Source: Limnomonas spitsbergensis
Lineage: Eukaryota > Chlorophyta > Chlorophyceae > Chlamydomonadales
Assembly (NCBI GenBank): GCA_037349105.1
Contig: JAYJMM010000094.1
Location: 1,054,001 to 1,118,000, forward strand
Length of the DNA: 64,000 nt
Direction of reading: 5' to 3'
Shown here: positions 6,650-48,000 of the stretch, piece by piece
Layout of the letters: each line of letters begins with the position of its first letter
How positions within the stretch are numbered: position 1 is the stretch's first letter
Made by a program: the position numbers and the translations under genes
Notes under the pieces: generated by a model
The model's input: the letters and a program-made list of their open reading frames with translations, nothing else
What the model was told of the DNA's origin: nothing
The model's database searches: none

Positions 6650-6800
6650 AAGCGAGCTCAAGCTCGTTCCTGTTTTCCTGCAGCTGTCTGCCGCCGCCGG
6701 TCATACAGCAGTGTTCACCTTTCTGCCATTGTACCTCGCGCTTTCTCACACGTGCTCAAGCTCTTTCCTGCTTTCCTACAGGGACTGGTGCTGAAAGGAG
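6650..6800 (+). repeat. Stray copy of the 5'-edge unit of formiminotransferase exon 3
   Basis: CTGTTTTCCTGCAG followed by CTGTCTGCCGCCGCC and later TTTCTCACACGTGCTCAAGC matches the intron-exon unit that is tandemly repeated at 15.7-16.1 kb. The copy lies about 9 kb away, upstream of the gene itself, and has decayed inside the exon part. Confidence 0.65.
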
Positions 6801-10047: not shown

Positions 10048-13000
10048 ATGCACACCGCACTCCCAAAGCTGCGCCTGCTGCTCCTCCGTCACCGCCTTCC
10101 TCTCGCGCGGTCCACCGACAAGACCATCCCCATCAGCCAATCTGCGGTAGAGACTCACCGCCAGCTGTTTACCGGCAGCTCCCGCTCGGGCCTGCTGCCT
10201 GCGGCAAGCTGTGCACATCCAGGAAGGCGTGCCAGCAGTAGCAGCGCTGACCAGTCAGCGTCAGGCCTGCAAGGAAGCCGGGCGGAAGCTGCTGGCATGA
10301 GCGGAAGCCAGACAGAAGCTGCTGGTATGGGAAGGAGTCAGACGCAAGCCGCAGGCGCTGAGAGCCATGTTCTGGCCGCGATTGTTTATGTCTCTGAGGG
10401 GACGAACCAGAGCGTGCTGCAGGAGCTTGAGGTGAGAGTCGAGGGAGGGAGGACGCTGCACCCACCTGCCACTTGTTTCAGGGCTTGACTCTTAGCCCTG
10501 AACCCCAAACCCTGAAACAGGCCAATCGACGTCGAACCTCTCCTTGTTGCATGGTTTGGACGGTAACGGCGCGGATGTGGCTTTGGCCCAGGCTGCGCTG
10601 TTTTCTTAACTCTCACGCCCCCCACGGGGCGTAGCTTTCTTCTTTTTCTTCTGCATGGTTTGGTGACAGGTGAGAAGTTGGGATGCCAACATTCCCTGAT
10701 ATATCCCACACGTGCAGCATAGGCCAAGAGGTTCAGAGTATGACGAATACCGCACCGTTAGCAAACCTGCAGTAACACCAAAGTGATGCTGGTATGGTGG
10801 TACCGTAGCTTTGCTTTTCACTTCCCTCATAATGAGCGTTGTTCGGGGATGTGAGGGATACATTCAGTCAAATCTACGCTTTGTCGATTCCTCCTTCAAA
10901 TATATTTTCTGCACCAAAGGCGTCCTGGTGTGCTCCAAAATTGAACATGGTGGGGGTGGAGGGGGCATTGTAGCTCAGAGGACAAGTGTTAGCTCCTCCC
11001 ATGCATTCATATCATGTAGAGCTGTGGGCCATGGGCAGGCTGGCCACGGGTATGCTGGCCACGGGCAGGCTGGCAGGGGGATTGTAGCTCAGAGGACAAG
11101 TGTTAGCTTCTCCCATGCATTCATATCATGTAGAGCTGTGGGCCATGGGCAGGCTGGCCACGGGTAGGCTGGCAGGGGGCATTGTAGCTCAGAGGACAAG
11201 TGTTAGCTTCTCCCATGCATTCATATCATGAAGAGCTGTGGGCCATGGGCAGGCTGGCCACGGGTATGCTGGCCACGGGTAGGCTGGCAGGGGGCATTGT
11301 AGCTCAGAGGACAAGTGTTAGCTTCTCCCATGCATTCATATCATGTAGAGCTGTGGGCCATGGGCAGGCTGGCCACGGGCAGGCTGGCCACGGGTAGGCT
11401 GGCAGGGGGCATTGTAGCTCAGAGGACAAGTGTTAGCTTCTCCCATGCATTCATATCATGAAGAGCTGTGGGCCATGGGCAGGCTGGCCACGGGCAGGCT
11501 GGCCACGGGTAGGCTGGCAGGGGGCATTGTAGCTCAGAGGACAAGTGTTAGCTTCTCCCATGCATTCATATCATGTAGAGCTGTGGACCATGGGCAGGCT
11601 GGCCACGGGTATGCTGGCCACGGGCAGGCTGGCAGGGGGATTGTAGCTCAGAGGACAAGTGTTAGCTTCTCCCATGCATTCATATCATGTAGAGCTGTGG
11701 GCCATGGGCAGGCTGGCCACGGGCAGGCTGGCCACGGGTAGGCTGGCAGGGGGCATTGTAGCTCAGAGGACAAGTGTTAGCTTCTCCCATGCATTCATAT
11801 CATGAAGAGCTGTGGGCCATGGGCAGGCTGGCCACGGGTATGCTGGCCACGGGTAGGCTGGCAGGGGGCATTGTAGCTCAGAGGACAAGTGTTAGCTTCT
11901 CCCATGCATTCATATCATGTAGAGCTGTGGGCCATGGGCAGGCTGGCCACGGGCAGGCTGGCCACGGGTAGGCTGGCAGGGGGCATTGTAGCTCAGAGGA
12001 CAAGTGTTAGCTTCTCCCATGCATTCATATCATGAAGAGCTGTGGGCCATGGGCAGGCTGGCCACGGGCAGGCTGGCCACGGGTAGGCTGGCAGGGGGCA
12101 TTGTAGCTCAGAGGACAAGTGTTAGCTTCTCCCATGCATTCATATCATGTAGAGCTGTGGACCATGGGCAGGCTGGCCACGGGTATGCTGGCCACGGGCA
12201 GGCTGGCAGGGGGATTGTAGCTCAGAGGACAAGTGTTAGCTTCTCCCATGCATTCATATCATGTAGAGCTGTGGGCCATGGGCAGGCTGGCCACGGGCAG
12301 GCTGGCCACGGGTAGGCTGGCAGGGGGCATTGTAGCTCAGAGGACAAGTGTTAGCTTCTCCCATGCATTCATATCATGAAGAGCTGTGGGCCATGGGCAG
12401 GCTGGCCACGGGTATGCTGGCCACGGGTAGGCTGGCAGGGGGCATTGTAGCTCAGAGGACAAGTGTTAGCTTCTCCCATGCATTCATATCATGTAGAGCT
12501 GTGGGCCATGGGCAGGCTGGCCACGGGCAGGCTGGCCACGGGTAGGCTGGCAGGGGGCATTGTAGCTCAGAGGACAAGTGTTAGCTTCTCCCATGCATTC
12601 ATATCATGAAGAGCTGTGGGCCATGGGCAGGCTGGCCACGGGCAGGCTGGCCACGGGTAGGCTGGCAGGGGGCATTGTAGCTCAGAGGACAAGTGTTAGC
12701 TTCTCCCATGCATTCATATCATGTAGAGCTGTGGGCCATGGGCAGGCTGGCCACGGGCAGGCTGGCCACAGGTAGGCTGGCAGGGGGCATTGTAGCTCAG
12801 AGGACAAGTGTTAGCTTCTCCCATGCATTCATATCATGAAGAGCTGTGGGCCATGGGCAGGCTGGCCACGGGCAGGCTGGCCACGGGTAGGCTGGCAGAG
12901 GGGCATTGTAGCTCAGAGGACAAGTGTTAGATTCTCCCATGCATTCATATCATGTAGAGCTGTGGGCCATGGGCAGGCTGGCCACGGGTATGCTGGCCAC

Positions 13001-16000
13001 GGGCAGGCTGGCAGGGGGCATTGTAGCTCAGAGGACAAGTGTTAGCTTCTCCCATGCATTCATATCATGTAGAGCTGTGGGCCATGGGCAGGCTGGCCAC
13101 GGGTAGGCTGGCAGGGGGCATTGTAGCTCAGAGGACAGGTGTTAGCTTCTCCCATGCATTCATATCATGAAGAGCTGTGGGTCATGGGCAGGCTGGCCAC
13201 GGGCAGGCTGGCCACGGGTAGGCTGGCAGAGGGGCATTGTAGCTCAGAGGACAAGTGTTAGCTTCTCCCATGCATTCATATCATGAAGAGCTGTGGGCCA
13301 TGGGCAGGCTGGCCACGGGCAGGCTGGCCACGGGTAGGCTGGCAGGGGGCATTGTAGCTCAGAGGACAAGTGTTAGCTTCTCCCATGCATTCATATCATG
13401 AAGAGTTGTGGGCCATGGGCAGGCTGGCCACGGGCAGGCTGGCAGGGGGCATTGTAGCTCAGAGGACAAGTGTTAGCTTCTCCCATGCATTCATATCATG
13501 TAGAGCTGTGGGCCATGGGCAGGCTGGCCACGGGCAGGCTGGCAGGGGGCATTGTAGCTCAGAGGACAAGTGTTAGCTTCTCCAATGCATTCATATCATG
13601 TAGAGCTGTGGGCCATGGGCACTCTGGCCACGGGCAGGCTGGCCACGGGTAGGCTGGCAGGGGGCATTGTAGCTCAGAGGACAAGTGTTAGCTTCTCCCA
13701 TGCATTCATATCATGAAGAGCTGTGGGCCATGGGCAGGCTGGCCACGGGCAGGCTGTTCACGGGCAGGCTGGCCACGGGCAGGCTGGCCACGGGCAGGCT
13801 GGCAGGGGACAATCTAGCTCAGAGCATATCATGTAGCCATGGGATTGGGCAGGCTGGCCATGGATAGGCTGCGGCATCGTCCGACCGTCAGAGGTTTCGA
13901 GAGGGGACAGGTTTTTATTTCTGTGCGCACAGGACCCGCTTCAACAGACCGCTGGGCGGCCACTGTCGGGTGCCGATTGGGACCAAACGTGGGCCATTCA
14001 ACGGCTGGTGGCCTACACAGCAGTACTGCAAGAACTGCAGTGCTGTAGATGTTCTTTACCTTCCCTCATAAGTCATCATTTAAGTTGTCTAGGGGTGAGG
14101 GTCTGATTTTGACATGAAATTGCTATGAAACCATCATTGACGCCATTTCCGTCTTAAATTGGGAGTGTTGGTTACTTGGTTGATTTGGCACCCCGAAGAA
14201 ATGATATATTTCAACCCGAGGCAAGTAATATTAAATCTACGGTACTGCAGTATTACCGGCAGTACCGTTATACAGCAGGACCAGTGCAATACCACATACT
14301 GTACTTGTACTGCCAGTACTTCTGCAGTACTAGTACAGTACCATACATATCCTGCAGGATTACTGCAAGCATCAACAAGCAATCAAGGAAATAGCGCAGG
14401 CTAGAAGCTGTGTCGCAATCTGTTGAGAGGGGGCCTTCATGCACAACTGGCCGCCGCCACACTTGTGTGGCTGTGTTCCGTGCATCAAGTTTGATGCTCC
14501 GCTGGACACTAAGAGACAGACAGGTTCGTCCTGCCTGGCCCTTTGGGGAAAGGCTGTGGGTGGTTGCGTCAACTTTGTAACAACCATAGCAATCCACCGC
14601 CCCCTCCCTGCCCCGCCTTCTGCTTCCAGGCCGTGGCGCAGTCAGTGCAGGGTGCCCTCCTCCTCAATATGTTCGTGGACGCACCTTACAACCGAACCGG
14701 GTTCACGCTGACTTCTACCTGCGGCAAAAAGGTGAACTGAGGCGACGCAATGCTGTTGTTTGAATGCACAGTGCTTGCAAGCACTAACGACTCGTGGGTC
14801 ATATCAAATTGGGGGCATATCAAATCAGGGGCATGCTGAGACCTTGCAAGGCCCATGGTAGCCCACCCAGTGCTACGGCCGAAGGGGTGGCTTCCTTTAT
14901 CCACGCCTCAGGGCGTATCTTATTCGAAGGAGGAGTAGGAACAGTATTTATTTAAAGACATTGCAACAACTGTTAATGTCCGGAGTCTCTGGACAGTGAT
15001 GAGAGTTTTTGGGTAGAGCTGGTAGTACCAGCTCATGAGTCATGATCAGTGCCGTGCCGATTACGGTCCTTTTGGCAACGGCTGCTCGGCGGTCCGTCAC
15101 CCGTGTGTGTCAAGATAAAAAACAAAAACAAAACAAACAAAACAAAAACAAAAAAACAAAGCTACTGACTGAGTTGCTCAGCTGTGTTTCAGCCACGGGA
15201 CATGCCAAGGCTACTTCAGCTTCTTTCACCAGGGATGGCACGTAGCTACTTGCACTTTTTCTGAATTGCAGCTAAATTCACGTCACTGGTCATAGCTCAA
15301 GGGTCTTGTCTAACTGCTGTTGGATGGACGCACATGTGCTGAAGTGAAGGATCATATTTGGAGTCTCAAGTGCCCCAAATACCTATACTCAAGTGCCCGA
15401 AATAACCGGAGGGGAAATGTTACTGCGTCGCAAAGAGGGTTTGGAGTTAAAACCTGAACCCGAAACCCTGAACCCTTCCGAAAGGGTAATTTAACTGTGT
15501 CACAAAGAGGTTTGGAGTTAAACTCTAGTACCTGAACCCTAAACCCTAAACCCTTCAGGAAGAGGATTGCAACTGCGTCTCAAAGACCCTGAGCCCTGCC
15601 GCCGCCTTCATTCTGAAAAGCATGAACCCCCAAGATGGAAGCCCCCCCGCCTCAAGTGTTTCCTCGAGCTCTACTACAACTGCCTGCTGCTGCCGTGCCT
15701 GTGGCGGAGTTGCCCCTTCAGCGGATGGACCTCACACTTTCTCACACCTTGTCACACTTGTTTCTGCTTTCCCGCAGCTGTCTGCCGCTGCCATGCGTGC
15801 GGTTGTGTTGACCTTGCTGCGATTGGACCTCGCTCTTTCTCACACCTGCTCATGATCGTTTCTGCCTTCCCGCAGCTGTCTTCAGCGGCCATGCGTACAG
15901 CAGTGCTGACCTTGCTGCCATAGGACCTCACACTTTCTCACACCTGCCCAAGCTGTTTCCTGTTTTCTCACACCTGCCCAAGCTGTTTCCTGTTTTCTCA

Positions 16001-19000
16001 CAGCTGCCTACCTGAGCCGTGCGTACAGCAGTGTTGACCCCACTGCCAATGGGCCTCACTCTTTCTCACACCTGCTAAACCTCTGTCCTGCTTTCCCGCA
16101 GCTGTCTTCCGCCGCCGTGCGCGTGGCAGAGCTGGCCTTGCTGCGATTGGACCTCAGGGCCCACGCGGCCACGCATCCGCGGCTGGGCGTGGCTGACCAT
16201 GTGTCCGTGCATCCCCTAGGAAGTATGCCTGAACCCTGAACCATAAACCCTCATCCCTAGACCCTGAACCCTGAACCATGCACCTTAACCCTAACTAGGC
16301 CCATGTGGCCACTCACCGGCGGCTGGGCATGGCCGGCCATGTGTCTGTGCACTTTCCCTGAGGTATGCATAGGACCTGTACCCTAAACCATGAACCTTGC
16401 TCCATAAGCCCTTAACACTAAACCCTAACCCCCGTAAACTGAACCCTGCACCTTACACCTAACTAGGCCCATGCGGCCACGCACCAGTGGCTGGACATGG
16501 CCAACCATGTGTCTGTTCACTATCTCCAAGGTATATATGCATCAGTGTGGTCTTGACGTAACCCTGATCCCTAACCCTAAATTCTAGGCTCTGAGCCCTG
16601 AATCCTAAACTCTTAACTCTGAAACCTACATATCTAATTCTTCACCTGTAAACCTTCGGGAGGTAAGAGTGTGATCTCTCTTGTTTGTGATTCAGGAAAG
16701 TTTTTGCGCATCAAACCCCACATACCCTGCCCCACATCTTTTAACAAGTATATGTATTACCTGACCACAGGTTCCTCCTCCAGCCTGATGGCTGCGGCTG
16801 CTGCTTGTGCTCAAGACATTGGCCAGCAGCTGGCTAAGGCTGGCCTCCCCGTATTCATGTATGGGGCAGCACATCCTCAGGGAAGGAAGCTGGCTGAGAT
16901 ACGGAGGAAGCTAGGTACGTGGGCAGGCATGGGAGCAGGAGTACAGGGAGCAGGAGGGGGGGGGGGGTAAAGAGTGTGGGGAGGGAGGGGAGACGCCGGC
17001 CTGCAGCTGCCTGGGGTTGGCCTCCCGGCGTTCATGTATGGGGCAGCACATCCTCAGGGAAGGAAGCTAGCTGAGATACGGAGGAAGCTAGGTACGTGAG
17101 CAGGCATGGGAGCAGGGGTGCATGAAGCAGGGGGGGTGGGGGGTAAAGAGTGTTGGGAGGTAGGGGAGACGCCGGCCAGCAGCTGGCTCAGGAAGGCCTT
17201 TCCTCTGTTCATGTTTAGGACAGCACATCTTCAGGGAAGGAAGCTGGTTGAAATACGGAGGAAGCTAGGTACGTAAGCAGGCATGGGGGCAAGGGTGCAA
17301 GGGGGGGTGGGGTGTAAAGAGTGTTGGGAGGGAGGGGAGACGCCGGCCAGCAGCTGGGGTTGGTCTCCCTGTGCTCATGTAAGGGGCAGCACATTCCCAG
17401 GGAAGGAAGCTGGCTGATATACGGAGGAAGCTAGGTACGCGGCAGGCGTGGGAGCAAGGGAGCAGGGGGGATAAAGGGTGGACAGGACCCGTTCTTGCCC
17501 TTCACCTACTTCAAGCATTTATCCTCAAACCTCCACCCTGATTAAGACTGAAGTCTGACCAATTATCGCCCTTGCCCGATCAGGATATTTCAAGCCAGAT
17601 GCCGAGGCCACCTCCTCGGCTTCCCTGCAGGTGAGGGAGCGGGGACAGGGGGGGGGCTGGCACCGTTTTGTAATATGTTTTGGTTGTTGTCACGTGTTAC
17701 GCCGTCTCTCGAGTTTTTCTTATGGTATGTTTTGTGTTATTAGTTAATTTATTTATATAATTATGAGGAATCCAAAGCACACAACACCGAGCCAGGTTTG
17801 GCAGGCCTCTGGGAAGCTACCGCTGGGCCAATGGGCCACTAGCCATAAACCCTTAACCCTAAGCCCTAAGTCCTCTGGGAAGCTACCGCTGGGCCAATGG
17901 GGTCCTAGTTTAGGGTTAGGCACTAGCCCTAAGCCCGAAACTCTTAACCCTAAACCCTTAACCCTCTGGGAAGCTACCCCCGGGTCAATGGGGTCCTATA
18001 ATGGCTTGGCCAACGGCCGAGTGCTCTAGAAGCCAAGCTTACTCCACCAGGTGGTAACAGCGGCCACGGCCACGGCACGGCCCATGCCGCACTGTTTTCT
18101 TCAATGAATGAATAAAATACAGGGAGGGGGAATGAAGTTTGGGATAAAGGAAGTGGCCCTTTGTGACCGAAGCATGGGACATGGCTACTGTGGTATAAAG
18201 TTTCCTTAACCCCCGCGCGCCTGCGGGTCGTATTGTACTTTCCTATCAGAAGCCAAGCTTGCTCTACACCTTTTGCTTCGAATTCACGAAGTGTGAGGCT
18301 GGCCGCCCAACCCTAGAGAACCTGATATGCAACACACAGAAAAACAGCCCGGGTGCGCTCGTGGCCCTCGTCGACATTTGAGAAAAGGCGAGCAGGAACA
18401 GGAAAGGCACACGACCAACAAGCTACACCAGAAGCCCTCGGCTGCAGACTGGGATGTAGCTGAAGTGTGGCTAAATAGCAATGAGCCCACTAGCCCTGCT
18501 GCCCACCCCACACCCACATAAACCCAGCACCTCCTCGGCTTCTCCACGGTTGAGGGAGCGGGGACAGGGGGGTTAGGGTTTAGGGTTTAGCACAAGCCAG
18601 GTTTGGCAGGCCTCTGGGAAGCTACCACTGGGCCAATGGGGTCCTAGTTAAGGGTTTAGCACTAGCCCTAAACCCCTAACCCTAAAACCCTAAACTAGGC
18701 TGCCCACCCCACACCCACATAAACCCAGCACCTCCTGGGCTTCCCCACGGTTGAGGGAGCGGGGACAGGGGGGCGGTTTTGTAATATGTTTTTGTTACGT
18801 GTTGTGTTATTAGTTACTCGAGTTTTGTTACAGTACGGTATGTGTTGTGTTATTACCGCACCATCAATCTCAATTGGTATTCACGATGGTCTCAAAACAT
18901 GAAACCACTTTGGATAAAGTGGCCTTCGGAATTAATACGGTCCAACCCAAGCTGGATAGTTGTTAAGTCGTATTTTGTGCGAAAAAGTGTGTGTTTATCC

Positions 19001-22000
19001 GCGCTTTCTCCTTCTCCACGCACTCACATAAACCCAGTACATTTGTACATTCTCCTATGGTACTTCTTAACCCCTGAGTTTTTTTTTCTCCTTTAGTGCG
19101 TCCTATGTTGTGTTATGCCGTAAAAGTCCTTTGCCTCGGCGAGAAAAAAATGTTTTCCGCTGTCGCACCTCCAGAAATTTACCCCAATTTTAGCGGAAAA
19201 TTACCCCAATTTTTGCTGTCGCATCTAACCCCAATTTCAGCGGGATAAACTTTTGGACATCAAGAAAAGTCATCCAGCGCTGTGGCTAAAAACTAAGTGT
19301 GAGTCTCGTTCACAGAGGCAAGTCAAGTCTACGGCAGTGCTCCTTATCTTCTCTTGATTTGCTTATTTCATTCTCCTACCCTAAACCCTAAACCCTGAAC
19401 CTAAAACCCTAAACCCTGCAATCCTTGTCACAGGAGGATCGTACCGGGGGAAACGAAGGTCCCTCTCTGTGGAAAGGCCGCCTAGGCATTCGATCTCTGG
19501 CACCCTATCCACCAGATGCTGGCCCCAACGAGGTGTGTCACGGAATGGGCCTTGGACTGTCCTACATAGCATAAAAGACAGTGCTGTGCTGATTACGGTC
19601 CTTACCGTGGCAGAATTACGAAGCTCCCTCTCTGAGGAAAGGCCCCCTTGGCGTTCGATCTCTGGCGACATATCGACCAGATGCCGGCCCCACCGAGGTG
19701 TGTCACGGATTTGTCCATGGACTGTCCTACGTAGCACAAGGGTTTAGGGTTTAGGGTTACCCAAACCTAAAACACTTAGCCCTAAACATAAACATAAACC
19801 TAAACCTTAGGCCTTAGCCCAAACCAGGTTTAGGGTTAAGGGTTACCCAAACCTAAAGATGATCATCAGAGCCATGTCCTGCCTCAGCAAAACGAACATG
19901 TTTTTTAAATTATGAATTCAGATGTCTTGTTATTTGAATTTGAATCCAGGCCAATGACCGCACCGGAGTGATGACCATCGGGGCGGTGCCTTGGCTCATC
20001 AATTACAATGTACCGCTGCTTTTAGCAAGCCTGGCGCAAGGTGCGTTCAAGTAGCTCTCGATCCTGTTATTGAGTCAAATTATGGTCGTATTTTCTCCAA
20101 CCAAATTACTTTTCATGCTATGGACGTCCTTCGCCTTGCCAGGAAGTTCAAATTTAATTGCCTGAGCAACTGACCAAATACTTCAACAAATACAATCAGC
20201 CGATGCCGCCGCGGTTCAGCATGGGATACTTTTAGAATTCCGACCGAGCATCATTCCTTGAGCAGTCCACAGTCCACACCTCTGCCGGACCGGTACTCAT
20301 GCAGTCATGCCCTGTCTGCAACATGACCATGGGCTCAGCAACAGCAGCGTGCCGCGCAAATCTGCATTGGCCAGACTATGGAATCTCCGAGGGACAGCTG
20401 CCTTGCGGGTTGTGCAGCTAAAATTCTTTTTTTGCCAAATTGTAACAAAGCACAGATTCGGGCTGTGCAAATTCGTATCATCCTGACCATGGAATCTCCC
20501 AGGGAAAGCTGCCCTGCGTGTTGTGCAGCTTAAAAACGATTGATTTTGGCAAGGGTTCAGGTTCTAGGGTAAGGGTTGAGGGTGTCATGCTTAAGTGTTA
20601 ACAAAGCACAGAATCGGGCTGTAAAACATCAAAATACAAAGACAATGGAATCTCCGAGGGACAGCTGCCCTACAAGTTGTGCAGCTTTCAAAAGCAATAA
20701 AGTTCGGCCAGATCGTAACAAAGCACAGATTCGGCAATTTTCAACTCACAAAATACTGGTAATTTTTTTGGCCAATCAACTATTAAACGTGATCGCATTA
20801 AACCACTACCGGTACCAGTGTGACCCTAACCAGAGATATCCTCGCTGCCCGGTTGTACATGTTCTGGGGCTCTAGCCAGTGTTGAAAACTTAGTCATAAA
20901 TGCTCAGCTACACCCTTTGCTCATGCTGGATTCAAAATTGGCCTCGGCGCGAAGCTGTTTCCTTCACTCTTACAACCAAAGGACAGTACCTGAATTGTAG
21001 CTGCATTGTAGCTGAAATGCAATAAAAGCCACCATGGTGCGCGCAGCCAAAATCATGGCACGTGCGGTGAGCCAGAGAGGAGACGGCCTTCCTCATGTGG
21101 ACAGTAGCTGAATTGTAGCTGAATTGCAGCTGAATGTAGCTGAAATGCACTGAATGCAACCATGGTGCACACAGCCAAGATCATGGCATGTGCGGTGAGC
21201 CAGAGAGGAGGAGGCCTCCTTCATGTGGACAGTAGCTGAATTGTAGCTGAATTGTAGCTGGCTGAATGTAGCTGAAATGCACTGAATGCAACCATGGTGC
21301 ACGCAGCCGAGATCATGGCACGTGCAGTGAGCCAGAGAGGAGAAGGCCTTCCTCATGTGGACAGTAGCTGAATTGTAGCTGAATTGCAGCTGAATGTAGC
21401 TGAAATGCACTGAATGCAACCATGGTGCACGCAGCCAAGATCATGGCACGTGCAGTGAGCCAGAGAGGAGACCTGCCTCATGTGGATAGTAGCTGAATTG
21501 TAGCTGAATGTAGCTGAAATGCTCTAAATGCAACCATGGTGTGTGCAGCCAAGATCATGGCATGTGCGGTGAGCCAGAGAGGAGGAGGCTCCCTCATGTG
21601 GACAGTAGCTGAATTGTGGCAAAATTGCAGCTGAATGTAGCTGAAATGCACGAAATGTAACCATGGTGCATGCAGCCAAGATCATGGCACGTGCGGTGAG
21701 CCAGAGAGGAGACCTCCCTCATGTGGACAGTAGCTGAATTGCTGCTGAATGTAGCTGAAATGCACTGAATGCAACCATGGTGCGTGCAGCCAAGATCATG
21801 GCACGTGCGGTGAGCCAGAGAGGAGGAGGCCTTCCTCATGTTGAGGCTATGGCGCTCACGCACCCTGATGGGAAGGATGGAACAGGTAGGAAAGCGGTTT
21901 TTGTTTTTTAACCGTAATTTCGGAGTGTTCTCTTTATGTTGAGGCTATGGCGCTAACGCACCCTGATGGGAAAGATGGAACAGGCAGGAAAGCTGCTTGT

Positions 22001-23607
22001 TTTTCAAAACCGTCATTTCTGATGTTATCTTTATGTTGAGGCTATGGCGCTCATGCACCCTGATGGGAAGGATGGAGCAGGCAGGTAAGCGGTTTCATTT
22101 TTAAACCGTAAGTTCTTATATTATCTTCATGTTAAGGCTATGGCGCTAACGCATCCTGATGGGAAAGATGGGACAGGTATGAAGGCGGTATCATTTTGAA
22201 AATCTTGGTGTCGGATGTTTCCTTTATGTGATTTATAGCGCTCACGCACGCATTCTGATGGGTAGAATGGAAAAGGGTTAGGAAACGGCTTAGTTTTTGT
22301 AATTATAATTTTGGATACGTCTCATTATCTGTTATGTTCTGTTGCATGGTGCCAGATGTGCTCCATACTCCAGCATATCCTTCATGTCCGTGTCTTTATG
22401 ATCCTTGGTGGCGAGGGTCCCACGGGCCTCGTCAGAGATATGAAATCTGGAATCTTCAATGGCCTTTCAGTATTGCCAACAATCCGATGTGTGTGTGAGT
22501 TGCTGGCACTGCTGCTGCTGCTACTTCTGCAACGACCTAGTCGTCATGTCCGAGTCTGCATTAGCATCAACTTTCAGCATTGTCACAAATCTGATGTGTC
22601 TGTTTTGCTGGCACTGCTGCTGCTGCTGCTGCTGCTGCAACGACCTTGCAGTTATGTCCAAATTTGCATTTCGGCGCTCATAGCCAGTGCCTAGGTGCCT
22701 CACCTCGATGCCTCACCTCGGCTTCAGCCTCGAAGCCCTCGACCCGTAACTCACAATCCTAAGCCCTCATGTCCATCTGAGAGACGTTAAGACACGGGGC
22801 TCAACTGCTGCGACGGCACAGGATGTATGTGTTTTCGTCAACTCGTCGAGCTCAGAAACGCTAATAACGAAATACTGAGCTCTCATGTCCCAGGGTCCAT
22901 CATGAACCTTAAAGCCAGGGTCCAGCCGGGGCCTTAAAGCCCTCAAAGCCAGAATCCAGCGAGGGCCTTAAAGCCCTCACAGCCAGCTTCCAGCTCCAGG
23001 GCATAGCCAGGGCCTTGAAGCCCTCAACCCTCAACTCCTAATTCTAAGCCCTCATGCCCCAGGGTCCATCGAGGTGGCATGCAACCTGCTGGATCTTAAG
23101 GCAACGCCACCGGCGGCAGTACAGCAGTACCTTGAAGCAATGGTTTTGGCCGCAGAGGCTGCCCGTCCGGGTGAGCTTCTTCATAGGAGCAGCGGTCAGG
23201 GCAGGATGTTGTAGCGTCCCTGGATGCCACTGAGTATAAGGCTATACAAGTGTACAGCCTTAGACTCAGTAGCATCCAGGGACGCTACAGATGTAGCAAA
23301 AAGGGTGGCAGCTTGTTGCTGGGGATCATCTTTGCTTATGTTGTCCAAAGCTGGGGCTGGGTAACCCAGGGACCTCTGAGAAAGGAAATGCGCTTTCGTG
23401 AGCCGATGACACTTTTTGCACCCCTTTTTTTGCTGTTGGCAACGAACGTGTTGTGATTTCGTCTCAGGCATTGCTCTGGATGCCGCTCCTGGTGTTGCTG
23501 CTGCAGCTGCTGGAGATGGGCTTGAGGGTGTCGTCGTTAAGCTAGGTTACTGCACCGGCAAGTCAGCAGAGGAGCTGATCCGCCTAACCCTGGAAGCAGC
23601 TGCCTAG
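10048..23607 (+). CDS. Plant-type glutamate formiminotransferase-like protein, nine exons
   Basis: Exons 10048-10431, 14630-14731, 16102-16222, 16771-16914, 17584-17630, 19950-20040, 21790-21885, 23063-23170 and 23468-23607 join in phase to 410 residues ending in TAG. All introns are GT-AG. The product resembles plant proteins related to the formiminotransferase domain of FTCD, which moves a formimino group from formiminoglutamate to tetrahydrofolate. Matching blocks in order: VLAAIVYVSEGTNQSVLQEL, NMFVDAPYNRTGFTLTS, ATHPRLGVADHVSVHPLG (His187 lies in the conserved HPRLG block), VFMYGAAHPQGRKLAEIRRK, LGYFKPDAE, MTIGAVPWLINYNVPLL, SQRGGGLPHVEAMALTHPDG, IEVACNLLD and a final GYCTGKSAEELIRL. About 105 residues precede the first block and may be a targeting or linker segment, so the start is less certain. 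Intron 1 is 4.2 kb and mostly satellite. The activity in algae is inferred. Confidence 0.85.
10960..13830 (+). repeat. Large minisatellite in intron 1, about 100-115 bp units with an inner 16-bp repeat
   Basis: About 25 copies of a unit beginning ATTGTAGCTCAGAGGACAAG, passing CCCATGCATTCATATCATG and ending in one to five copies of a 16-bp subunit, GGCAGGCTGGCCACGG. Unit length changes with the number of 16-bp subunits, giving a nested repeat. Several multi-unit blocks recur as larger blocks (for example the 11.18-11.75 kb pattern again at 11.75-12.33 kb), showing recent block duplication. The short open frames across it are by-products. Confidence 0.95.
15670..16101 (+). repeat. Upstream copies of the 5' edge of formiminotransferase exon 3
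   Basis: The acceptor and exon start (CCCGCAG|CTGTCTTCCGCCGCC at 16102) recur at about 15778 and 15874 with good pyrimidine tracts, and more weakly near 15674 and 16001. Copies read through to GATTGGACCTC and then revert to the intron motif TTTCTCACACCTG. Confidence 0.85.
16223..16560 (+). repeat. Downstream copies of the 3' edge of formiminotransferase exon 3
   Basis: The exon 3 end (GGCCCACGCGGCCACGCATC through CATGTGTCCGTGCA) recurs at about 16298-16365 and 16467-16533. Both keep a donor, GAG|GTATGC and AAG|GTATAT, like the true GGAA|GTATGC. Telomere-like CCCTAAACC runs lie between copies. Confidence 0.85.
16915..17450 (+). repeat. Downstream copies of the 3' edge of formiminotransferase exon 4
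   Basis: Three copies of the end of exon 4 (TTCATGTATGGGGCAGCACA through GGAAGCTAG|GTACGT) at about 17020-17095, 17195-17275 and 17365-17445. All keep CTAG|GTACG. The first would still encode most of the FMYGAAHPQGRKL block. Confidence 0.9.
17631..18790 (+). repeat. Downstream copies of the exon 5 3' edge with repeat family A and telomere-like runs
   Basis: The exon 5 end and intron start (CACCTCCTCGGCTTCCCTGC then GAGGGAGCGGGGACAGGGG and TTTTGTAATATG) recur at about 18529 and 18730. In both copies the donor GT has become TT. Between them are four or five copies of CTCTGGGAAGCTACC with CCCTAAACC runs, and a family A copy at about 18270-18470. Confidence 0.75.
19380..19865. repeat. Interstitial telomere-like runs flanking a direct duplication
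   Basis: CCCTAAACCC runs at 19380-19420 and TTTAGGGTTTAGGG with its complement at 19740-19860. Between them a segment of about 165 bp is duplicated (GATCTCTGGC, CCACCAGATGC/CGACCAGATGC, CCCCA(A/C)CGAGGTGTGTCACG). Smaller runs occur at 15500-15560, 16230-16640, 17840-17960, 18570-18700 and 35140-35260. Confidence 0.8.
20340..20730 (+). repeat. About 130-bp intronic tandem repeat
   Basis: Three copies of a unit containing ATGGAATCTCC, AGCTGCC and GTTGTGCAGCT followed by GTAACAAAGCACAGATTCGG, in intron 6. No coding role is seen. Confidence 0.7.
20980..21789 (+). repeat. Six upstream copies of the 5' edge of formiminotransferase exon 7
   Basis: The exon 7 start (GCAG|CCAAGATCATGGCACGTG, true copy at 21790) recurs six times, near 21039, 21171, 21307, 21437, 21549 and 21675. 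Each carries the acceptor AG and about 45 exon bases coding KIMARAVSQRGG-like sequence. The copies alternate with the intron motif TAGCTGAATTGTAGCTGAAT. They stop at CTTCCTCATGT, where the exon continues only in the last copy. Confidence 0.92.
21886..22260 (+). repeat. Four downstream copies of the 3' edge of formiminotransferase exon 7
   Basis: The exon 7 end (ATGTTGAGGCTATGGCGCTC through GGAACAG|GTAGG) recurs starting near 21937, 22033, 22130 and 22225. The first three keep a G|GCAGG or G|GTATG-like junction. Exon 7 therefore sits between an upstream array of its 5' half and a downstream array of its 3' half. Confidence 0.92.
22725..23062 (+). repeat. Upstream copies of the 5' edge of formiminotransferase exon 8
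   Basis: The intron end and exon start, CCTCATGCCCCAG|GGTCCATC, have weaker relatives near 22767 (CCCTCATGTCCATC) and 22886 (CTCATGTCCCAGGGTCCATC). The motif GCCTTAAAGCCCTCA is repeated between them. Confidence 0.65.
23210..23289. repeat. Near-perfect 34-bp inverted repeat (hairpin) in intron 8
   Basis: The arm at 23210-23243 pairs with 23256-23289 at 32 of 34 positions, with a 12-base loop (ATACAAGTGTAC). The transcript of intron 8 could fold into a long stem. The arms contain GCGTCCCTGGATGC and GCATCCAGGGACGC. No MITE target duplication was identified. Confidence 0.85.
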
Positions 23608-24310
23608 CAGCTGCGGGTGTTGCTATTGGGAGAGCTAGTGTTGCTGCTGGTGTTGCACTGGCAAATCAGCCTCACGCTGGAAGCAGCTGCCTAGCAGCTG
23701 ATGGTGTTGCTGTTGGTATAGCTGGTGTTGCTGCTGGTGTTGCACTGGCAAATCAGTCTAACACTGGGAGCAGCTGCTTAGCAGCTGCTATTGTTGCACC
23801 GGCAAGTCAGCAGAGGAGCTTATCTTCCTCATGGTAGAAGGAGCTGCCTAGCAGCTGCTGTTATTGTTGCTGGTATTGCACCAACAAGGCAGCCTCACGC
23901 TGGAAGCAGCTGCCTAGCAGATGCGGGTGTGGCACCAGCAAGTCAGCAGAGGAGCTGATCTGCCTCGCGCTAGAAAGAGCTACCTAGCAGCTGCTGGTGT
24001 TGCACCAACAAGGCAGCCTCGCGCTGGAAGCAGCTGCCTAGCAGATGCGGGTGTGGCACCAGCATGTCAGCAAAGGAGCTAATCTGCCTCACGCTAGAAG
24101 GACATGCCTAGCAGCTGCTGGTGTTGCACCGGCAAGGCAGCAGAGGGGCCGATCTGCCTTGAGCTGGAAGCAGCAGCCTAGTAGCTCCGGTGTTGTTGCT
24201 GGTATTGCACTGACAAGTCAGCGTCACACAAGAAGCAGCTGCCCAGCAGCTGCTGATGTTGCTCCGGAAAGGTAACGAGGAAGCTGATCCGCCTTTCGCA
24301 GGAAACAGCT
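23608..24310 (+). repeat. About nine downstream copies of the last exon's 3' end, each including the stop region
   Basis: The end of exon 9 (CACCGGCAAGTCAGCAGAGG through GAAGCAGCTGCC and TAG) is repeated with a spacing of about 60-90 bp. Several copies keep ACCGGCAAGTCAGCAGAGGA and most keep the CCTAGCAG stop context. The array probably forms the 3' UTR or lies just past it. Confidence 0.92.
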
Positions 24311-24739
24311 GCTCCCCACCAGCCCCTTGAATAGAGGTGACAGTCACGTCGAGGCGTTGGATACGACGGGCAGTGATCTCGCAACCCTCGTGTCGGTCCT
24401 TATGAGGGGCAGGCATGTTGCTTACATTTATTTGCTTGTATTTAAGAGGCATGGCTTGCTTTTGTGATGATCAGAGCGTCTTAACTGCCTTTGCTACATT
24501 GACATCACTGGACATGAAGACCTCAGTTCCTTCAGGTCAGGATTGGCCCGGGCATGGTGCCCTGTTTCTATCAGCTGCTGTGATGGGGTTGTCTCAGAGG
24601 TAAAGCCTGGAAGGTCCTGGTTCTTATTATATTTACTCTCTGGTCAAATGCCCGCATGCACAGCCCTCCGCTCAAAGCCGGTAGCAAGATCACGAGGATG
24701 ACATCAAGAGGAAGACCGGGGTGAATGTTAGGGAGGGTA

Positions 24740-26574: not shown

Positions 26575-29500
26575 ATGGCGTCTATCTCTGCCAAGCAAAA
26601 TGCCTTCATGGCCTCGACCTCGTTCGCTTCGACCCAGAAGAAGGTCGCCGTCAACAGGGGATCCCTGCAGGTCGGTCCCCCATGATACCAGTGTGCGCGA
26701 TGTATAGTCACCATAGTATCCATGAAAGACGGTCTTGACTTGTGAGACCGGGTGGGTCGCAACTTATCCTCTTGGGTGGTCGTGGTGGAGGATCGGTCCC
26801 TGGGAACATGTCCAGAAACGTCCATGCCACGAGATACCTAAGTGGGCTAGTATTTCATGGTTAATGTTGAGCACTCGGAGAGGCACTCCCTGCTGAACAT
26901 CTTGTGTTTGTCCTCAGGTGGCTGCCGGCATGAAGGAGATTCGCGATCGTATTGGATCAGTGAAGAACACCTCCAAGATCACAGAGGTGACCTACGGGGT
27001 ATTCAGTCCGGATAAGGAGGAGTTTGATGCCTTCTAGCCGAGTTACCCGCACCCATTGTGTGTGGATTGGGGGACTGGAAGGACATATTCGGATAAGTTT
27101 GAATTGTAGTGGTCATTGATTGTGTTCATGCGCAGGCCATGAAGCTGGTCGCTGCTGCCAAGGTGCGCCGTGCCCAGGAGGCCGTCATCAACTCTCGTCC
27201 CTTCTCGGAGAACCTCGTGAAGGTGAGCGAGCGACGATGAAGGGAGATACTCAGCTTTGCTGTCCTGTACGAGGGTGCATGCAGGGGGCAGCACAACACT
27301 TTGACGCACCCCATCTCTTTGCTGAGATCTCATTCGAAAATAGATGGACGGCCACGGTTAGCCGATCATTGTCCCAAGCCATGGGTGCCACGTACAAGCT
27401 ACCACAGCCCTTTCATCAGCCATATCTGATGGCAATGTTTGGGGGCAGATTTACAAATATTCAATGCTGTGCATCCCCCACCTGGCACATGTTTTCAAAC
27501 CTGCCCCCTCTCCCCCCTTACATGCGCATGTGTCCCCTTCTCCTTCTCGCCTGACAGGTGTTGTGGGGTGTTAACCAGAGGCTGCGCGTTGAGGATGTGG
27601 ACTCACCTCTGTGCAATGTCCGCCCCGTCAAGACGGTCCTGATGGTTGTTATCACCGGAGACCGTGGTCTGTGCGGTGGATACAACAACTTCATCCTGAA
27701 GAAGGTAAGGTGGCATGCGAAGGCACGGTTATTTTAGGATGTGGACCAAATCTGATGGAGTCATGCATCGGAAGGCTTTGAGAAGTACAGTGCATTTGCA
27801 GTCTCCCTTGCTGGCCAGCATTTGGTTTGATCTGGTCAAGGCGCACTTCACAAAAATGTGGAAGGTGGTGGTGGGTAACGTGACTATTCAGGGTGCCGGT
27901 GGGACTAAATTTGGTCAGGGCCACAAGGTGGCTATGATCACTGGACTGGATGCTCATGCCTTGCCATGCCACGATGTCTGGCTGATGAATTTTTGTCTGT
28001 CCCAACCGTCCGTGGCCTAGTAAAAGACAAGTGTCCCCCCAAAGCTCTAGCTCAGTCAGGTCCTCCAACTGCATGGTCTCACCATATGGCAGGCTAGAAA
28101 ATAGCCACCACTGCCTTGGTGTCCCGCATGGACTTCAACTCGCCGTCTAGATTTCAACTGCCGATCAGTTGCTTTCACAGCCAGTGCTGCCCTTGGTAAC
28201 ATCTATGAAGATGCGCAACGATTTGAAGCAGTCCTATACCTCGGGACTCGTCAGTGGATGCCCAGACCCCTTCCTCTCAACCTCCTCTTCACCCCTCAGA
28301 CCGAGAGGCGCTTCACCGAGCTCACCGCGCTGGGTGTCACCGTGAAGGTGGTCGCCATCGGACGCAAGTGCCAGCAGTACATGAAGCGCAGGCCCAAGTA
28401 CGACATCGTCAGTGAGTACAGCTCCAAGAGCCCCCAGACACGCCTGGCCTGGCGCTGGCCGTCGATGCAGCCTGCCCCGCTTGTGCCTGGCATGTGCCGC
28501 CCACAGTTTTTCCCGGCACGGGCTACCCACACAACCTGTCCCACCCTCTGTCTGGCACAACCGCGCTCTTTTCTGGGCCGGCTAGGCCGCCGGTGTCTGC
28601 ACCTGCTCGACAGATGGCCGCTGGTTTCATGCATCCCTGCGATAGCTTGAGTGCTCACTGGACGGAAAGCCTGAGAGTAGCCCCCGGTAGCCGCGCCATG
28701 TATCTGTGGGTGGTGCACAGGTGTGGCATGCCTTGTCCTGCCCCCCCCGGCCAGTCTGAAGCTGTTTCGCGTGGCATGCCTTGTCCTCCCCCCATGGTTC
28801 AGCTGTTCATTCATTCCCGGGCAATGCACTTTGCTCTCAGCCCCAGTGATCACCTGTTTGTCGGGGCTTCTAAAACCGGTGGTTCCCCCCCATTGTGATC
28901 TGTTCCTTTCCGCTCTCGGCCCCGGTGATCGCCTGGTTGTCGGGACTTCTAAAATAGGTGGCTCCCCCAGTCCCCCCCCATTGTGATCTGTTCCTTTCCG
29001 CTCTCAGCACCTGCAATCACCCGGTTGTCGGGGCTTCTAAGCCAGAGGCTCCCCCCATTTTAATCTGTTCCATTCCTCGCGCCCCTGCAGAGGCATTCAA
29101 CATTGGCAAGGCGCCCACCATGAAGGACTCCCAGGCCATCTCCGACGAGGTTTTCTCCAGCTTTGTCTCTGAGGAGTGCGACAAGGTGGAGATGATCTAC
29201 ACCAAGTTCATCTCGCTGATCTCTTCGGACCCCGTGATCCAGACGCTGCTGCCCTTGACCCCCAGGTACGGGGTGCGGTACCTGGGGCTGGGGCCCTGGT
29301 GCGGTACCCGGTGCGGGTACCTGGGGCCCTGGTGCGATACGTGGGTGCGGTACCCGGTGCGGCTTTAGACAATGACAAGAAGCAGCGGCCAATGTATCCG
29401 CACGAAATTGTGAAGACAAGAGGCTCCCCAGTAGGCACCTGTGGATTAGGGATCCTGACTCTCTGGCGTGCATTGAGGTCTCTCTGTTAAGAGATACATA

Positions 29501-31333
29501 CCTCATGGCTACTTTCATAGTGGCCTTTGTGGCTTCAGACCCTGACCCCGTGACATGCTCTGTATCTTCAGAAATGCCTGGGGAGCGCTGGGTTGTCAAA
29601 GTGACTAGACCACCATTAACACATCTACAGCTGTACACTAGAAGCAGGAGACCAAATATCAAAGCATGCTTCCAGCAGCTCGCTACCCTTGCATGTTCCT
29701 TTGCCCCGACATGCACCTGACCCCATCCCCAAACCCCTGTCCACACAGCGGTGAGCTTTGTTCCGCTGAAGGCAACTGCGTGGATGCCGCCAACGACGAG
29801 ATTTTCAAGCTGACCAGCAAGGGCGGCAAGTTCTCTGTAGACCGCGAGAGCAAGCCCATCGAGACTGAGCCCCTCGACCCCGGCCTCATCTTTGAGCAGG
29901 AGCCCACCCAGGTATGAAGACAGGCTCAGGCACAGAGCATTGTTGGGTGAAGGGATGGCCAGGCGCAAGGCTGTGGATGATGAGTGGCAGTGCCCCAGCC
30001 TCACGCCTAATTAGGAGACCACATAACAGGCCCTGGCAGGGAGCATGGTTGGGTGAAGAGTTGCAGGGCCATGGATGATGAGTGGCAAGGCCCCGGCCTC
30101 ACATTCAATCAGGAGCCCACTTGGTTAAATAACAGGGCCAGAAATTTTAGGGCTTGGAGACCTGTTCTGTTTGTGACCAGCAGGTAGGTGTGTCCTTTCA
30201 TATTGAGCAGGACAACTGAGGATCAAGTCAATGACTCTCCAGCTTCTTTTTTGTTCTGTCTTGGAGCCGTCTGTTTACTTCCCAACTACAAACCCTGCCC
30301 TGCTGTCCCCTTAATTCTTTTCTAATCCCTGTTTCCTGCTGTCTGTATCCCGCAGATCCTGGACTCCCTGCTGCCGCTGTACCTGAACGCGGCGATCCTG
30401 CGCTCCCTCCAGGAGGCGCTGGCCTCTGAGCTGGCAGCGCGGATGACGGCCATGGCCAGCGCCTCGGACAATGCCAAGGAGCTGCGCAAGGTGAGAGGCG
30501 CTTTTGCTAGATAAGGAGAAGTCAATGACATACAACCTCTGGCCTCTGCTCAAAAAGGCTTGGCCGGTAGGCAAGGATGGGGTGGGCTGGTATGATTGAA
30601 CGGGGCAGGAGAACGTGCGCGGCCTGAGCTGACAGCCTGGCAGCCCTGATGAAGGAAAAAGCTGCAAAGGTTTGTTTTCAGCTCCTTGTCAAATTAGAAC
30701 TCCGAATTGATGTCATGAGGGCACCTTGGTGGATGACACCTTCTTTGAAAATAAGACACCCTCCATGCCCGGGTTTCTGACTGGCTCTGTCCTGTGCTGA
30801 ATGTTTCTTTCAGGCCCTTGAAGCCCTACATTGTTTTTTTCCATATGTGCTCCCTGATTGGCAATGCCCATGTCCTCCCTGATTGGCAATGCCCATGTCC
30901 TCCCTGATTGGCAATGCCCTTATCCTCCCTGATTGGCAATGCCCTTATCCTCCCTGATTGGCAATGCCCATGTCCTCCCTGATTGGCAATGCCCATGTCC
31001 TCCCTGATTGGCAATGCCCTTATCCTCCCTGATTGGCAATGCCCTTATCCTCCCTGATTGGCAATGCCCATGTCCTCCCTGATTGGCAATGCCCATGTCC
31101 TCCCTGATTGGCAATGCCCTTATCCTCCCTGATTGGCAATGCCCATGTCCTCCCTGATTGGCAATGCCCATGTCCTCCCTGACTGGAAATGCCCATGTCC
31201 GTCCTCCCTGACTGACCTCCCTTGTGTGCAATGCCCCCCTCAGGCCCTGTCTGCCAGCTACAACAGAAAGAGGCAAGGCAAGATCACCCAGGAGCTCGCC
31301 GAGCTGTGCAACGGTGCCGCAGCCGGCCGCTAA
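26575..31333 (+). CDS. atpC: Chloroplast ATP synthase gamma subunit, nine exons
   Basis: Exons 26575-26670, 26918-26986, 27136-27222, 27558-27704, 28300-28411, 29091-29265, 29749-29911, 30356-30490 and 31244-31333 give 357 residues, the usual length for green algal precursors. The gamma subunit is the rotor shaft of the plastid F1 ATP synthase; it couples proton flow through the membrane ring to ATP formation in the alpha/beta head. The first roughly 32 residues (Ser, Ala, Lys, Arg-rich) are a likely transit peptide, ending at a splice junction. Conserved blocks are [49 protein letters not shown] and the C-terminal [14 protein letters not shown] and KITQELAEL. Exon 7 begins the plastid-specific regulatory loop with Cys233 and Cys239 ([14 protein letters not shown]), the pair that thioredoxin reduces to activate the enzyme in light. 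The reading phase is continuous and nothing is missing. Confidence 0.97.
28715..29090 (+). repeat. Tandem repeat before atpC exon 6
   Basis: About three copies of a unit of 80-120 bp containing CCATTGTGATCTGTTCCTTT, CCGCTCTC and GGTTGTCGGG. The last copy merges into the true intron end (TAATCTGTTCCATTCC then CCCCTGCAG|AGG), so this is a repeat of the acceptor region without exon sequence. Confidence 0.7.
29912..30140 (+). repeat. Decayed downstream copies of the atpC exon 7 3' edge
   Basis: The exon 7 end and intron start (GGCCTCATCTTTGAGCAGGA then GCCCACC) are echoed at about 29998-30040 (CCTCACGCCTAATTAGGAGA) and 30099-30140 (CCTCACATTCAATCAGGAGC). Shared flanks are GGATGATGAGTGGCA and GAGCATGGTTGGGTGAAG. 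The donor is lost in both. Confidence 0.65.
30845..31205 (+). repeat. 25-bp minisatellite in atpC intron 8
   Basis: About 14 copies of a 25-bp unit with CTCCCTGATTGGCAATGCCC, alternating CATGT and CTTAT variants. It ends just before the true branch and acceptor region of exon 9. Its unit resembles that region (GTGCAATGCCCCCCTCAG). A decoy acceptor, TTTCTTTCAG|GCCCTTGAAGCC at 30813, precedes the array. Confidence 0.9.
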
Positions 31334-46529: not shown

Positions 46530-48000
46530 CCCCGCCAACTGCTTGTCCCACACCATCTGGCAGCTGGGGGCTGCGGCGGTTGAGCGGGCTGGGCAGACCC
46601 TTGCTGTCCAGCAGATGATCAGCTGCTTGTCTCACACCATCTGGCAGTTGGGGGTGGTGGCGGCTGAGCGGGTCGGGCGTGCCCTTGCTGCTCATCAGAT
46701 GATCAACAGCCTGTCAGCATGACTAACACCGTCTGGCAGCTGGGGGCAACAACGGCTGAGCGGGTCGGGCAGGCCCTTGCTGCCAAGCAAATGATCAGCT
46801 GCTTGTCTCGCACCTTCTCGTTGCTTGGGGCAACGGCGGCTGAGCGGGTCGGGCATGCCCTTGCTGCCCAACACCTGATCAGCAGCCTGACTGACACCGT
46901 CCGGCAGTTGGGGGCAGGGGCAGTTGAGCAGGTTGGACAGGCCCTTGTTGCCCAACAGATGATCAGTAGCCTGACTTACACAGTCTGGCAGCTTGGGGCA
47001 GCGGCGGCTGAGCAGGTCGGGTAGGCCCTTGCCGCCGAGCGGATGATCAGCAGCCTGCCTAACACCATCCGGCAGCTGGGGGCAACGGCAGTTGAGCGGG
47101 CTGGGCATGCCCTTGCTGCCCAGCAGATGATCAGCAGCCTGACTAACGCCATCTGGCAGTCGAGGGCAGTTGCGGCTGAGCGAGTCGGGCAGGCCCTTGC
47201 TTCCCAGCAGATGATCAGCAGCCTGACTAACACCGTCTGACAGGAAGGTATATGGGCTGTTGAGCGGGCTGGGCGGGCCATTGTTGCCCAATGGATGATC
47301 AGCAGCCTGACTAAGACCCTCCGGCAGTCAGTGGCAGCTGCGGCTGAGCGGGTCGGGCACGCCCTTGTTGCCTATCAGATGATCATCAGCCTAACTGACA
47401 CCGTCTGGCAGCTGGGGGTAGCGGCGGCTGAGCTGGCTGGACAGGCCCTTGCTGCCCAGCAAATGATCAGCTGACTGACTAAAACCGTTTGGCAGCTGGG
47501 GGTAGCGGCGGCTGAGCGGGTCAGGCATGTCATTGCTGCCCAACAGATGATCAATGACTTGATTAACACCGTCTGACAGCTGGGAGCCGGCGGCTGAGCA
47601 GCAAGGGTTTGTCTGACCCGCTCAACCGCCACTGCCCCCACTGCCAAACGGTGTGAGACAAGCAGCTTGTCAGCTGCTCGGCAGCAAGGGTCTGCCCAGC
47701 CCGCTCAGCCGCCGCTGCCCCCAGCTCCCAGACAGTGTTAGTCAGGCTGTTAATCATCTGCTAGGCAGCAAGGGCATGCCCAACCCGCTCAGCCGCCGTT
47801 GCCCCCAACTGCCATACGGTGTTAGTCAGGCAGCTGATCATCCGCTGGGCAGGAAGGGCCTGCCCAACCCGCTCAGCCGCCGTTGCCCCCAACTGCCATA
47901 CGGTGGTAGTCAGGCAGCTGATCATCCGCTGGGCAGGAAGGGCATGCCCGCCCGCTCAACCGCCGCTGCCCCTAGCTGCCAGACATTGTCAGTCTTCCTT
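46530..48000. repeat. 84-bp minisatellite with an orientation switch
   Basis: About 13 copies of an 84-bp unit (CAGATGATCAGCAGCCTGAC, ACCGTCTGGCAGCTGGGGGC, GAGCGGGTCGGGCAGGCCCT) run in plus orientation to about 47590, then four to five copies run in the opposite orientation to about 48000. Being a multiple of three, the unit keeps open frames on both strands (28-residue repeats such as ISSLTNTVWQLGA) although frameshifts break them. Confidence 0.92.

Follow-up and report, generated by a model that had tools for sequence, protein, structure and literature searches.

Around a formiminotransferase-like gene of the green alga Limnomonas spitsbergensis, probably a snow alga, exon edges are accompanied by tandem arrays of their own decayed copies, and this raises the question of whether duplication is directed at splice junctions or runs through introns in general and takes on a polarity where it meets an exon. 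The window, that is, the whole stretch of DNA that was analysed, comprises 64,000 nucleotides of contig JAYJMM010000094.1 (positions 1,054,001 to 1,118,000).

Exon-edge copies in the FTCD-like gene

The gene (FTCD below) occupies 10048-23607 on the forward strand and was modelled as 10 exons with a 1332-nt open reading frame, consistent phases and nine GT-AG introns. The product of 443 aa contains an FTCD_N domain (E 1.5e-40), and a relative from Chlamydomonas eustigma is 50% identical across 76% of the query. A preliminary description of this DNA had counted nine exons, at least five of them flanked by arrays; the arrays were confirmed and the exon count was corrected to ten, as follows.

10048..10431, forward strand: exon 1, start codon at 10048 (open reading frame with consistent phases; homologues)
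14630..14731, forward strand: exon 2, no edge copies at E 1e-4 (gene model; blastn)
16102..16222, forward strand: exon 3, intact (gene model)
16771..16914, forward strand: exon 4, intact (gene model)
17584..17630, forward strand: exon 5, intact (gene model)
19434..19532, forward strand: exon 6, intact (gene model)
19950..20040, forward strand: exon 7, no edge copies at E 1e-4 (gene model; blastn)
21790..21885, forward strand: exon 8, intact, the exon 7 of the preliminary description (gene model)
23063..23170, forward strand: exon 9, intact (gene model)
23468..23607, forward strand: exon 10, terminal, the exon 9 of the preliminary description, stop codon 23605-23607 (gene model)

Copies were sought by blastn, using each exon with its 60-nt flanks against the whole window at an E cut-off of 1e-4. 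Those at FTCD exon edges were returned with E values from 8e-5 to 1e-54, and in a block-shuffled control the fraction of positions passing a 70%-of-40-nt criterion was 0.0. The arrays and single copies were located as follows, together with a purely intronic array for comparison.

10960..13871, forward strand: purely intronic array of ~115 bp in intron 1, for comparison (tandem-repeat finder, TRF; blastn)
15725..16058, forward strand: exon 3 upstream array, acceptor and first ~55 exon nt, copies at 15725-15831, 15817-15930 and 15964-16058 (blastn)
16298..16519, forward strand: exon 3 downstream copies starting at exon nt 57, 16298-16424 spanning the donor and 16466-16519 partial (blastn, alignment)
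16998..17470, forward strand: exon 4 downstream, three copies of the 3' part with donor, at 16998-17150, 17174-17321 and 17345-17470 (blastn)
18528..18796, forward strand: exon 5 downstream, two copies of the 3' part and donor region, at 18528-18572 and 18729-18796 (blastn, alignment)
19618..19739, forward strand: exon 6 downstream, one copy of the 3' part with donor (blastn, alignment)
20986..21727, forward strand: exon 8 upstream, six copies of the acceptor and first ~55 exon nt (TRF, blastn)
21936..22328, forward strand: exon 8 downstream, four copies of the 3' part and donor region (TRF, blastn)
22871..22901, forward strand: exon 9 acceptor, a single weak copy, 31-bp match (blastn, alignment)
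23665..24312, forward strand: array in the 3' flank repeating the stop-codon end of exon 10, no splice donor involved (blastn)

By blastn, 8/18 splice junctions of the gene are copied. Acceptor-spanning copies lie only upstream, at exons 3, 8 and, weakly, 9, as had been claimed for the 5' exon ends, and donor-spanning copies lie only downstream, at exons 3, 4, 5, 6 and 8; exons 1, 2 and 7 gave no edge copies against the window at E 1e-4, and neither exon 1 nor exon 2 matched the ~115-bp array of intron 1. The earlier list of donor copies, at exons 3, 4, 5, 7 and 9 in its own numbering, was right as to polarity, but its exon 9 is the terminal exon, whose copies contain no donor, and it omitted the exon 6 copy. 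Its count of six copies before and four after exon 8 was reproduced by blastn. The polarity had also been called strict, and it is so for every edge-spanning copy inside the gene, where blastn found none on the wrong side at E up to 1e-4; outside the gene, however, an exon 3 acceptor copy at 6656-6737 (74% identical, 9.4 kb upstream) is not in tandem. Pieces of this acceptor unit, 74-83% identical, were seen over 6656-6776. A search of the 260 Mb genome with the exon 3 acceptor unit placed it at 5 sites, all in its own array, among best candidates only, which missed the copy at 6656.

At the copied splice sites, the AG was intact in both copies aligned from the exon 3 upstream array and in 6/6 upstream copies of exon 8. 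TT stands in place of the donor GT in both downstream copies of exon 5, and the four downstream copies of exon 8 have GC in two cases and GT in two.

Elsewhere in the window, an 84-bp tandem array with long open frames was seen at 46550-47984, arranged head-to-head, the consensus of its second half (47593-47984) resembling by eye the reverse complement of the first. A Pfam scan of 42.6-62.6 kb on both strands returned weak EF-hand matches only. Short CCCTAAA-like runs, which we take to be of the plant telomere type, are scattered in introns and intergenic DNA (17934-17965, 18662-18693, 19378-19417 and elsewhere), and a segment at 35546-35692 that reads C-I-V-A-Y in frame occurs in two copies, one followed by GTAAG, and resembles, to our eye, the end of an exon of triosephosphate isomerase.

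Junction copies and their polarity over four genes

Junctions were counted in four genes, FTCD, AtpC, the L002 gene and RecQ, with 42 introns and 84 junctions. One of them lies in the window downstream of FTCD.

26575..31333, forward strand: AtpC, chloroplast ATP synthase gamma, 9 exons (gene model)

We take the identity of AtpC from its translated sequence, recognised without a database search; its introns are short (149-753 nt). The L002 gene, unnamed and without a Pfam match, comes from the upstream flank; its 7 exons were assembled by hand on the strength of reading frames and phases. The RecQ helicase gene, from a stretch of the same contig chosen arbitrarily (L004), has 20 exons, 19 GT-AG introns and no stop; its core exons were placed by spliced alignment to three relatives, its last five by hand from phases and its first acceptor from one relative. 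L008 and L009 were added to complete RecQ, whose exons 1-10 were unseen before modelling. The genes in L002 and L004 were modelled after copies had been seen in them by eye, the stretches themselves not being selected for arrays. The junction counts include neither terminal nor start edges, nor the RecQ exons that precede the conserved helicase core, nor L002-gene exons upstream of the first modelled one. No gene model was obtained in L003, L005, L006 or L007. A retrotransposon-like element lies on the minus strand of L005, where frames match Integrase_H2C2, rve and PHD and, below threshold, a C-5 methylase; LINE-like reverse-transcriptase frames were recognised by eye from motifs on the minus strand of L009 at ~8.8-9.9 kb. 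In four arbitrary 10-kb stretches the copied fraction was 4%, 30%, 67% and 82%; the two highest values, those of L006 and L007, reflect tandem-copy coverage by what are apparently satellite arrays.

Each junction was scored by comparing a 50-nt window centred on it with the non-coding neighbourhood within 2.5 kb, at a cut-off of 17, which 2.1% of all other-locus comparisons reached (99.5% point of junction windows at most 16.0). By this looser score, 32/84 junctions are copied (FTCD 8/18, AtpC 1/16, L002 gene 8/12, RecQ 15/38), with 16 acceptors all copied upstream and 16 donors all copied downstream. When copies were required to span the junction, 25/84 remained (FTCD 8/18, AtpC 0/16, L002 gene 5/12, RecQ 12/38). 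Within 2.5 kb in the four genes, no wrong-side copies were found among either the 25 or the 32, and inverted spanning copies were rare (1/84 junctions, 19/547 intron positions). As the copies are on the same strand and on the expected side, with inverted ones rare, tandem duplication is indicated rather than dispersed copying.

The spacing of copies overlapped between junctions and introns, with quartiles of 111-169 nt (25 junctions) and 79-126 nt (224 intron positions) and 10th-90th percentiles of nearest-copy distance of 94-331 nt (n=25) and 66-177 nt (n=224). The median distance to the nearest copy was slightly larger at junctions, 139 nt (n=25) versus 107 nt (n=224) in introns. Abutment of the upstream and downstream arrays at one point of the exon was considered as a rule, having been seen in FTCD exon 3 (nt 55/56) and exon 8 (nt 55/43), and was ruled out elsewhere (RecQ exon 3, 15 and 57; L002 gene exon 6, 34 and 400); the meeting point near the same nucleotide in FTCD exons 3 and 8 is possibly chance.

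The reading that fits these counts best, to which we assign a probability of about three in four, is that tandem duplication with units of ~65-330 bp is pervasive in introns and that polarity is forced by the keeping of one intact exon. Tandem duplications would strike all through the introns of the genome, and one that reaches from an intron into an exon would place a cut-off part of the exon upstream of the complete one, with the mirror image at a donor. As the intact exon survives only at the end of an array, acceptor copies would come to lie upstream and donor copies downstream. The copies would then turn into intron sequence and expand or decay, while the exon would be held by purifying selection. 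The earlier suggestion that polarity follows from junction-spanning tandem duplication with one intact exon selected was the one that fitted best, in 25/25 spanning and 32/32 looser cases. The duplication itself would be selectively neutral and the rest of the genome would be alike.

What the four genes display directly is that copies exist, in three of the four, with the polarity described and at junctions as often as in nearby intron. Against the best explanation stand the junction excess over collapsed intron and the shortfall of the simulations, both described below, a divergence ratio that is not 0.5, the 0/16 of AtpC, and the small sample of four genes, in two of which some copies had been seen before modelling. 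No AtpC junction has a spanning copy, yet 24% of its intron positions are copied, and stronger constraint or the short introns may account for this.

Copy rates at junctions and in introns

What had seemed to stand out in the preliminary description was the density of duplications at splice junctions. In raw coverage of the four genes, 47% of intron positions are copied versus 30% of junctions, and a stringent ungapped test, which missed old copies later seen by eye in L002 and L004, showed no junction enrichment (FTCD junctions 6/18, deep-intron positions 52%). Because a few long arrays dominate the introns, arrays were collapsed so that each was counted once. The deep-intron rate was then 15% and the junction ratio 1.93 (bootstrap 1.28-2.81), or 2.02 (bootstrap 1.12-3.51) without FTCD, a twofold excess that sets unweighted junctions against array-collapsed intron positions.

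A distance profile gave copied fractions on the exonic side of 0.17 at 60 nt inside, 0.22 at 30 nt and 0.31 at 15 nt, of 0.30 at the junction itself, and on the intronic side of 0.30 at 30 nt, 0.29 at 60 nt, 0.33 at 100 nt and 0.34 at 200 nt, with 0.43 at 300 nt and 0.50 at 600 nt in the deeper intron. There was no local peak at the junction in the four genes, and pairing each junction with an intron position 60-200 nt from it revealed no difference, whichever of four thresholds or six distances was used (p 0.36-1.0). Neither the profile nor the paired test thus bore out a special density at junctions, and the excess over collapsed deep intron is common to the intron flank rather than confined to the junction. 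The ratio of junction to collapsed intron also drops as similarity rises, from 1.93 at T17 to 1.63 at T24, 1.39 at T36 and 0.72 at T40, the numbers for the most similar copies being small (T36, 6/84 junctions versus 5.1% of collapsed intron; T40, 3/84 versus 5.0%).

A splicing- or R-loop-linked process that duplicates preferentially at splice junctions, the other origin proposed earlier, would agree with junctions at about twice the collapsed deep-intron rate and above all 11 simulated settings, but the junction peak is absent, nearby paired intron positions are equal, and the ratio falls to 0.72 at T40, where copies are few, having been 1.39 at T36. In addition, one of the three stop-codon edges examined is copied as well (FTCD exon 10; those of AtpC and the L002 gene are not). 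With no peak and an equal flank, a splicing-linked process is not needed, and we regard it as quite improbable; the four genes gave no enrichment over matched controls, the outcome named at the outset as counting against it. With a sample of four genes, a small junction effect may have escaped detection.

Neutral expectations were obtained from simulations of uniform tandem duplication with random intron deletion, in 11 settings, all but one of them with constrained exons. By the spanning metric, the copied share of junctions was 0.056-0.242 across these settings and never reached the real 0.298, and the ratios of junction to collapsed intron were 0.34-1.07 at thresholds 17 and 19, compared with the real 1.93; the simulated maximum of 1.35 was reached at T40 in the setting without arrays. 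An earlier simulation with the looser metric gave 0.17-0.21 versus a real 0.38. With frozen exons, the simulated fraction of copied junctions was 0.208 instead of 0.174 by the looser metric and 0.122 instead of 0.073 by the spanning one; a pure visibility effect of frozen exons was rejected, this gain being too weak. The suggestion that genome-wide duplication is simply most visible at exons thus held as regards the copying of nearly half of intron positions without a junction peak, while visibility alone proved insufficient. The neutral model does not account for the exon-proximal excess of copies.

Two further processes bear on this excess. The survival of old copies under uniform duplication, which we consider unlikely, supposes that they outlast near exons, since the deep intron is made younger by insertions and deletions that reach the exon are removed. 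The shrinking of the excess with copy similarity, and its extension to the intron flank, would follow; however, simulated exon-sparing deletions with a median of 25, 60 or 300 nt produced no excess in a model without insertions. Sequence inserted into introns could thin out the old copies far from exons, so that the zone next to exons would be the richer in them. Duplication that favours exon-proximal DNA (the junction and the first few hundred nucleotides of intron), for which transcription or chromatin at exons might be responsible, appears rather unlikely.

State of the copies and comparison with known systems

For the measurement of divergence, 24 junctions provided 42 copies in which either side had 12 or more aligned sites. 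All 42 combine exonic and intronic sequence (1776 intronic sites aligned). Per junction, the exonic half diverges less (means 18.1% versus 21.9%; 18/24 junctions; Wilcoxon p 0.011), with an exonic/intronic ratio of 0.83 (bootstrap 0.70-0.98), whereas pooled sites gave 15.4% exonic versus 16.3% intronic divergence (corrected ratio 0.94) and RecQ reversed the order (ratio 1.15). As a fully frozen exon is expected to give 0.5, a ratio above this means that exonic change or alignment bias must matter.

An assembly artefact comes to mind, tandem arrays being classic places of mis-assembly. However, mean divergence per junction ranges from 1% to 43%, 21/25 copied junctions have just 1-3 spanning copies, and the PacBio reads, with an L50 of 32.9 kb according to the passages available of the genome paper (PMC11228838), are far longer than the FTCD exon-edge arrays, so that this explanation is hardly credible. 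The published annotation of the genome comprises 18,277 genes, and the paper reports 43,157 polished Iso-Seq isoforms.

That the copies are kept as useful redundant splice sites, for back-up or regulated alternative splicing, would be in keeping with an intact AG in 20/24 acceptor copies, but overall identity alone predicts 17.4/24, and for the donor GT 16.7/25, where 18/25 were intact. Moreover, among the blastn matches no copy in FTCD or AtpC contains both the acceptor and the donor of one exon, as a whole-exon duplication would. Such usefulness is therefore very improbable, and the decoy splice sites are neither purged nor visibly maintained.

Were splice sites recognised in pairs across the exon, a short exon would be delimited by its innermost acceptor-donor pair alone, and the outer copies could accumulate freely; exon definition plausibly picks the true site among the decoys. 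If the four genes are typical, about a third of the genome's splice junctions would carry decoy splice-site copies, correct splicing would depend on exon definition, and the genome would be a natural experiment in how the spliceosome distinguishes true sites from decoys. Exon 8 of FTCD is such a case, where seven acceptors follow one another but a single exon is complete. The arrays also show that introns are able to lengthen by taking in exon-edge copies, and gene predictors may mistake decayed copies for exons.

Minisatellite (VNTR) arrays in introns are made up of repeats some tens to a few hundred bp long, arranged head to tail, variable in copy number and partly decayed. The algal arrays have these features in common with them, but exon edges and splice sites form part of the repeated unit. 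Introner elements are intron-associated repeats dispersed over many loci; the one array unit that we searched genome-wide was found in its own array only, as mentioned above, in a search that missed the 6656 copy.

Pervasive exon-edge arrays were not described in the open-licence literature searched, as far as titles and abstract openings go, and are not mentioned in the passages of the genome paper (PMC11228838). The abstract of PMC4974935 describes, for the RdRp gene of potato, a tandem duplication that runs across the boundary of intron and exon, so that the acceptor and its signals are copied; it also sets out a model of intron gain through tandem duplication of AGGT-containing exonic sequence. 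The algal arrays resemble the AGGT model in that tandemly duplicated exon sequence ends inside an intron, and differ from it in that the copies carry intronic flank and an existing splice site. An intron built of duplicated exon sequence alone was not encountered among the 42 copies, all of which reach into intronic flank. The potato case, as far as that part of PMC4974935 goes, is one recent event by which a new intron was made, whereas in the alga the arrays are many, decayed and partly multi-copy, lie inside introns and affect both kinds of exon edge, acceptor and donor, in three of the four genes. Judged from its sequence, the algal case is a recurrent, partly multi-copy and decayed form of junction-crossing tandem duplication.
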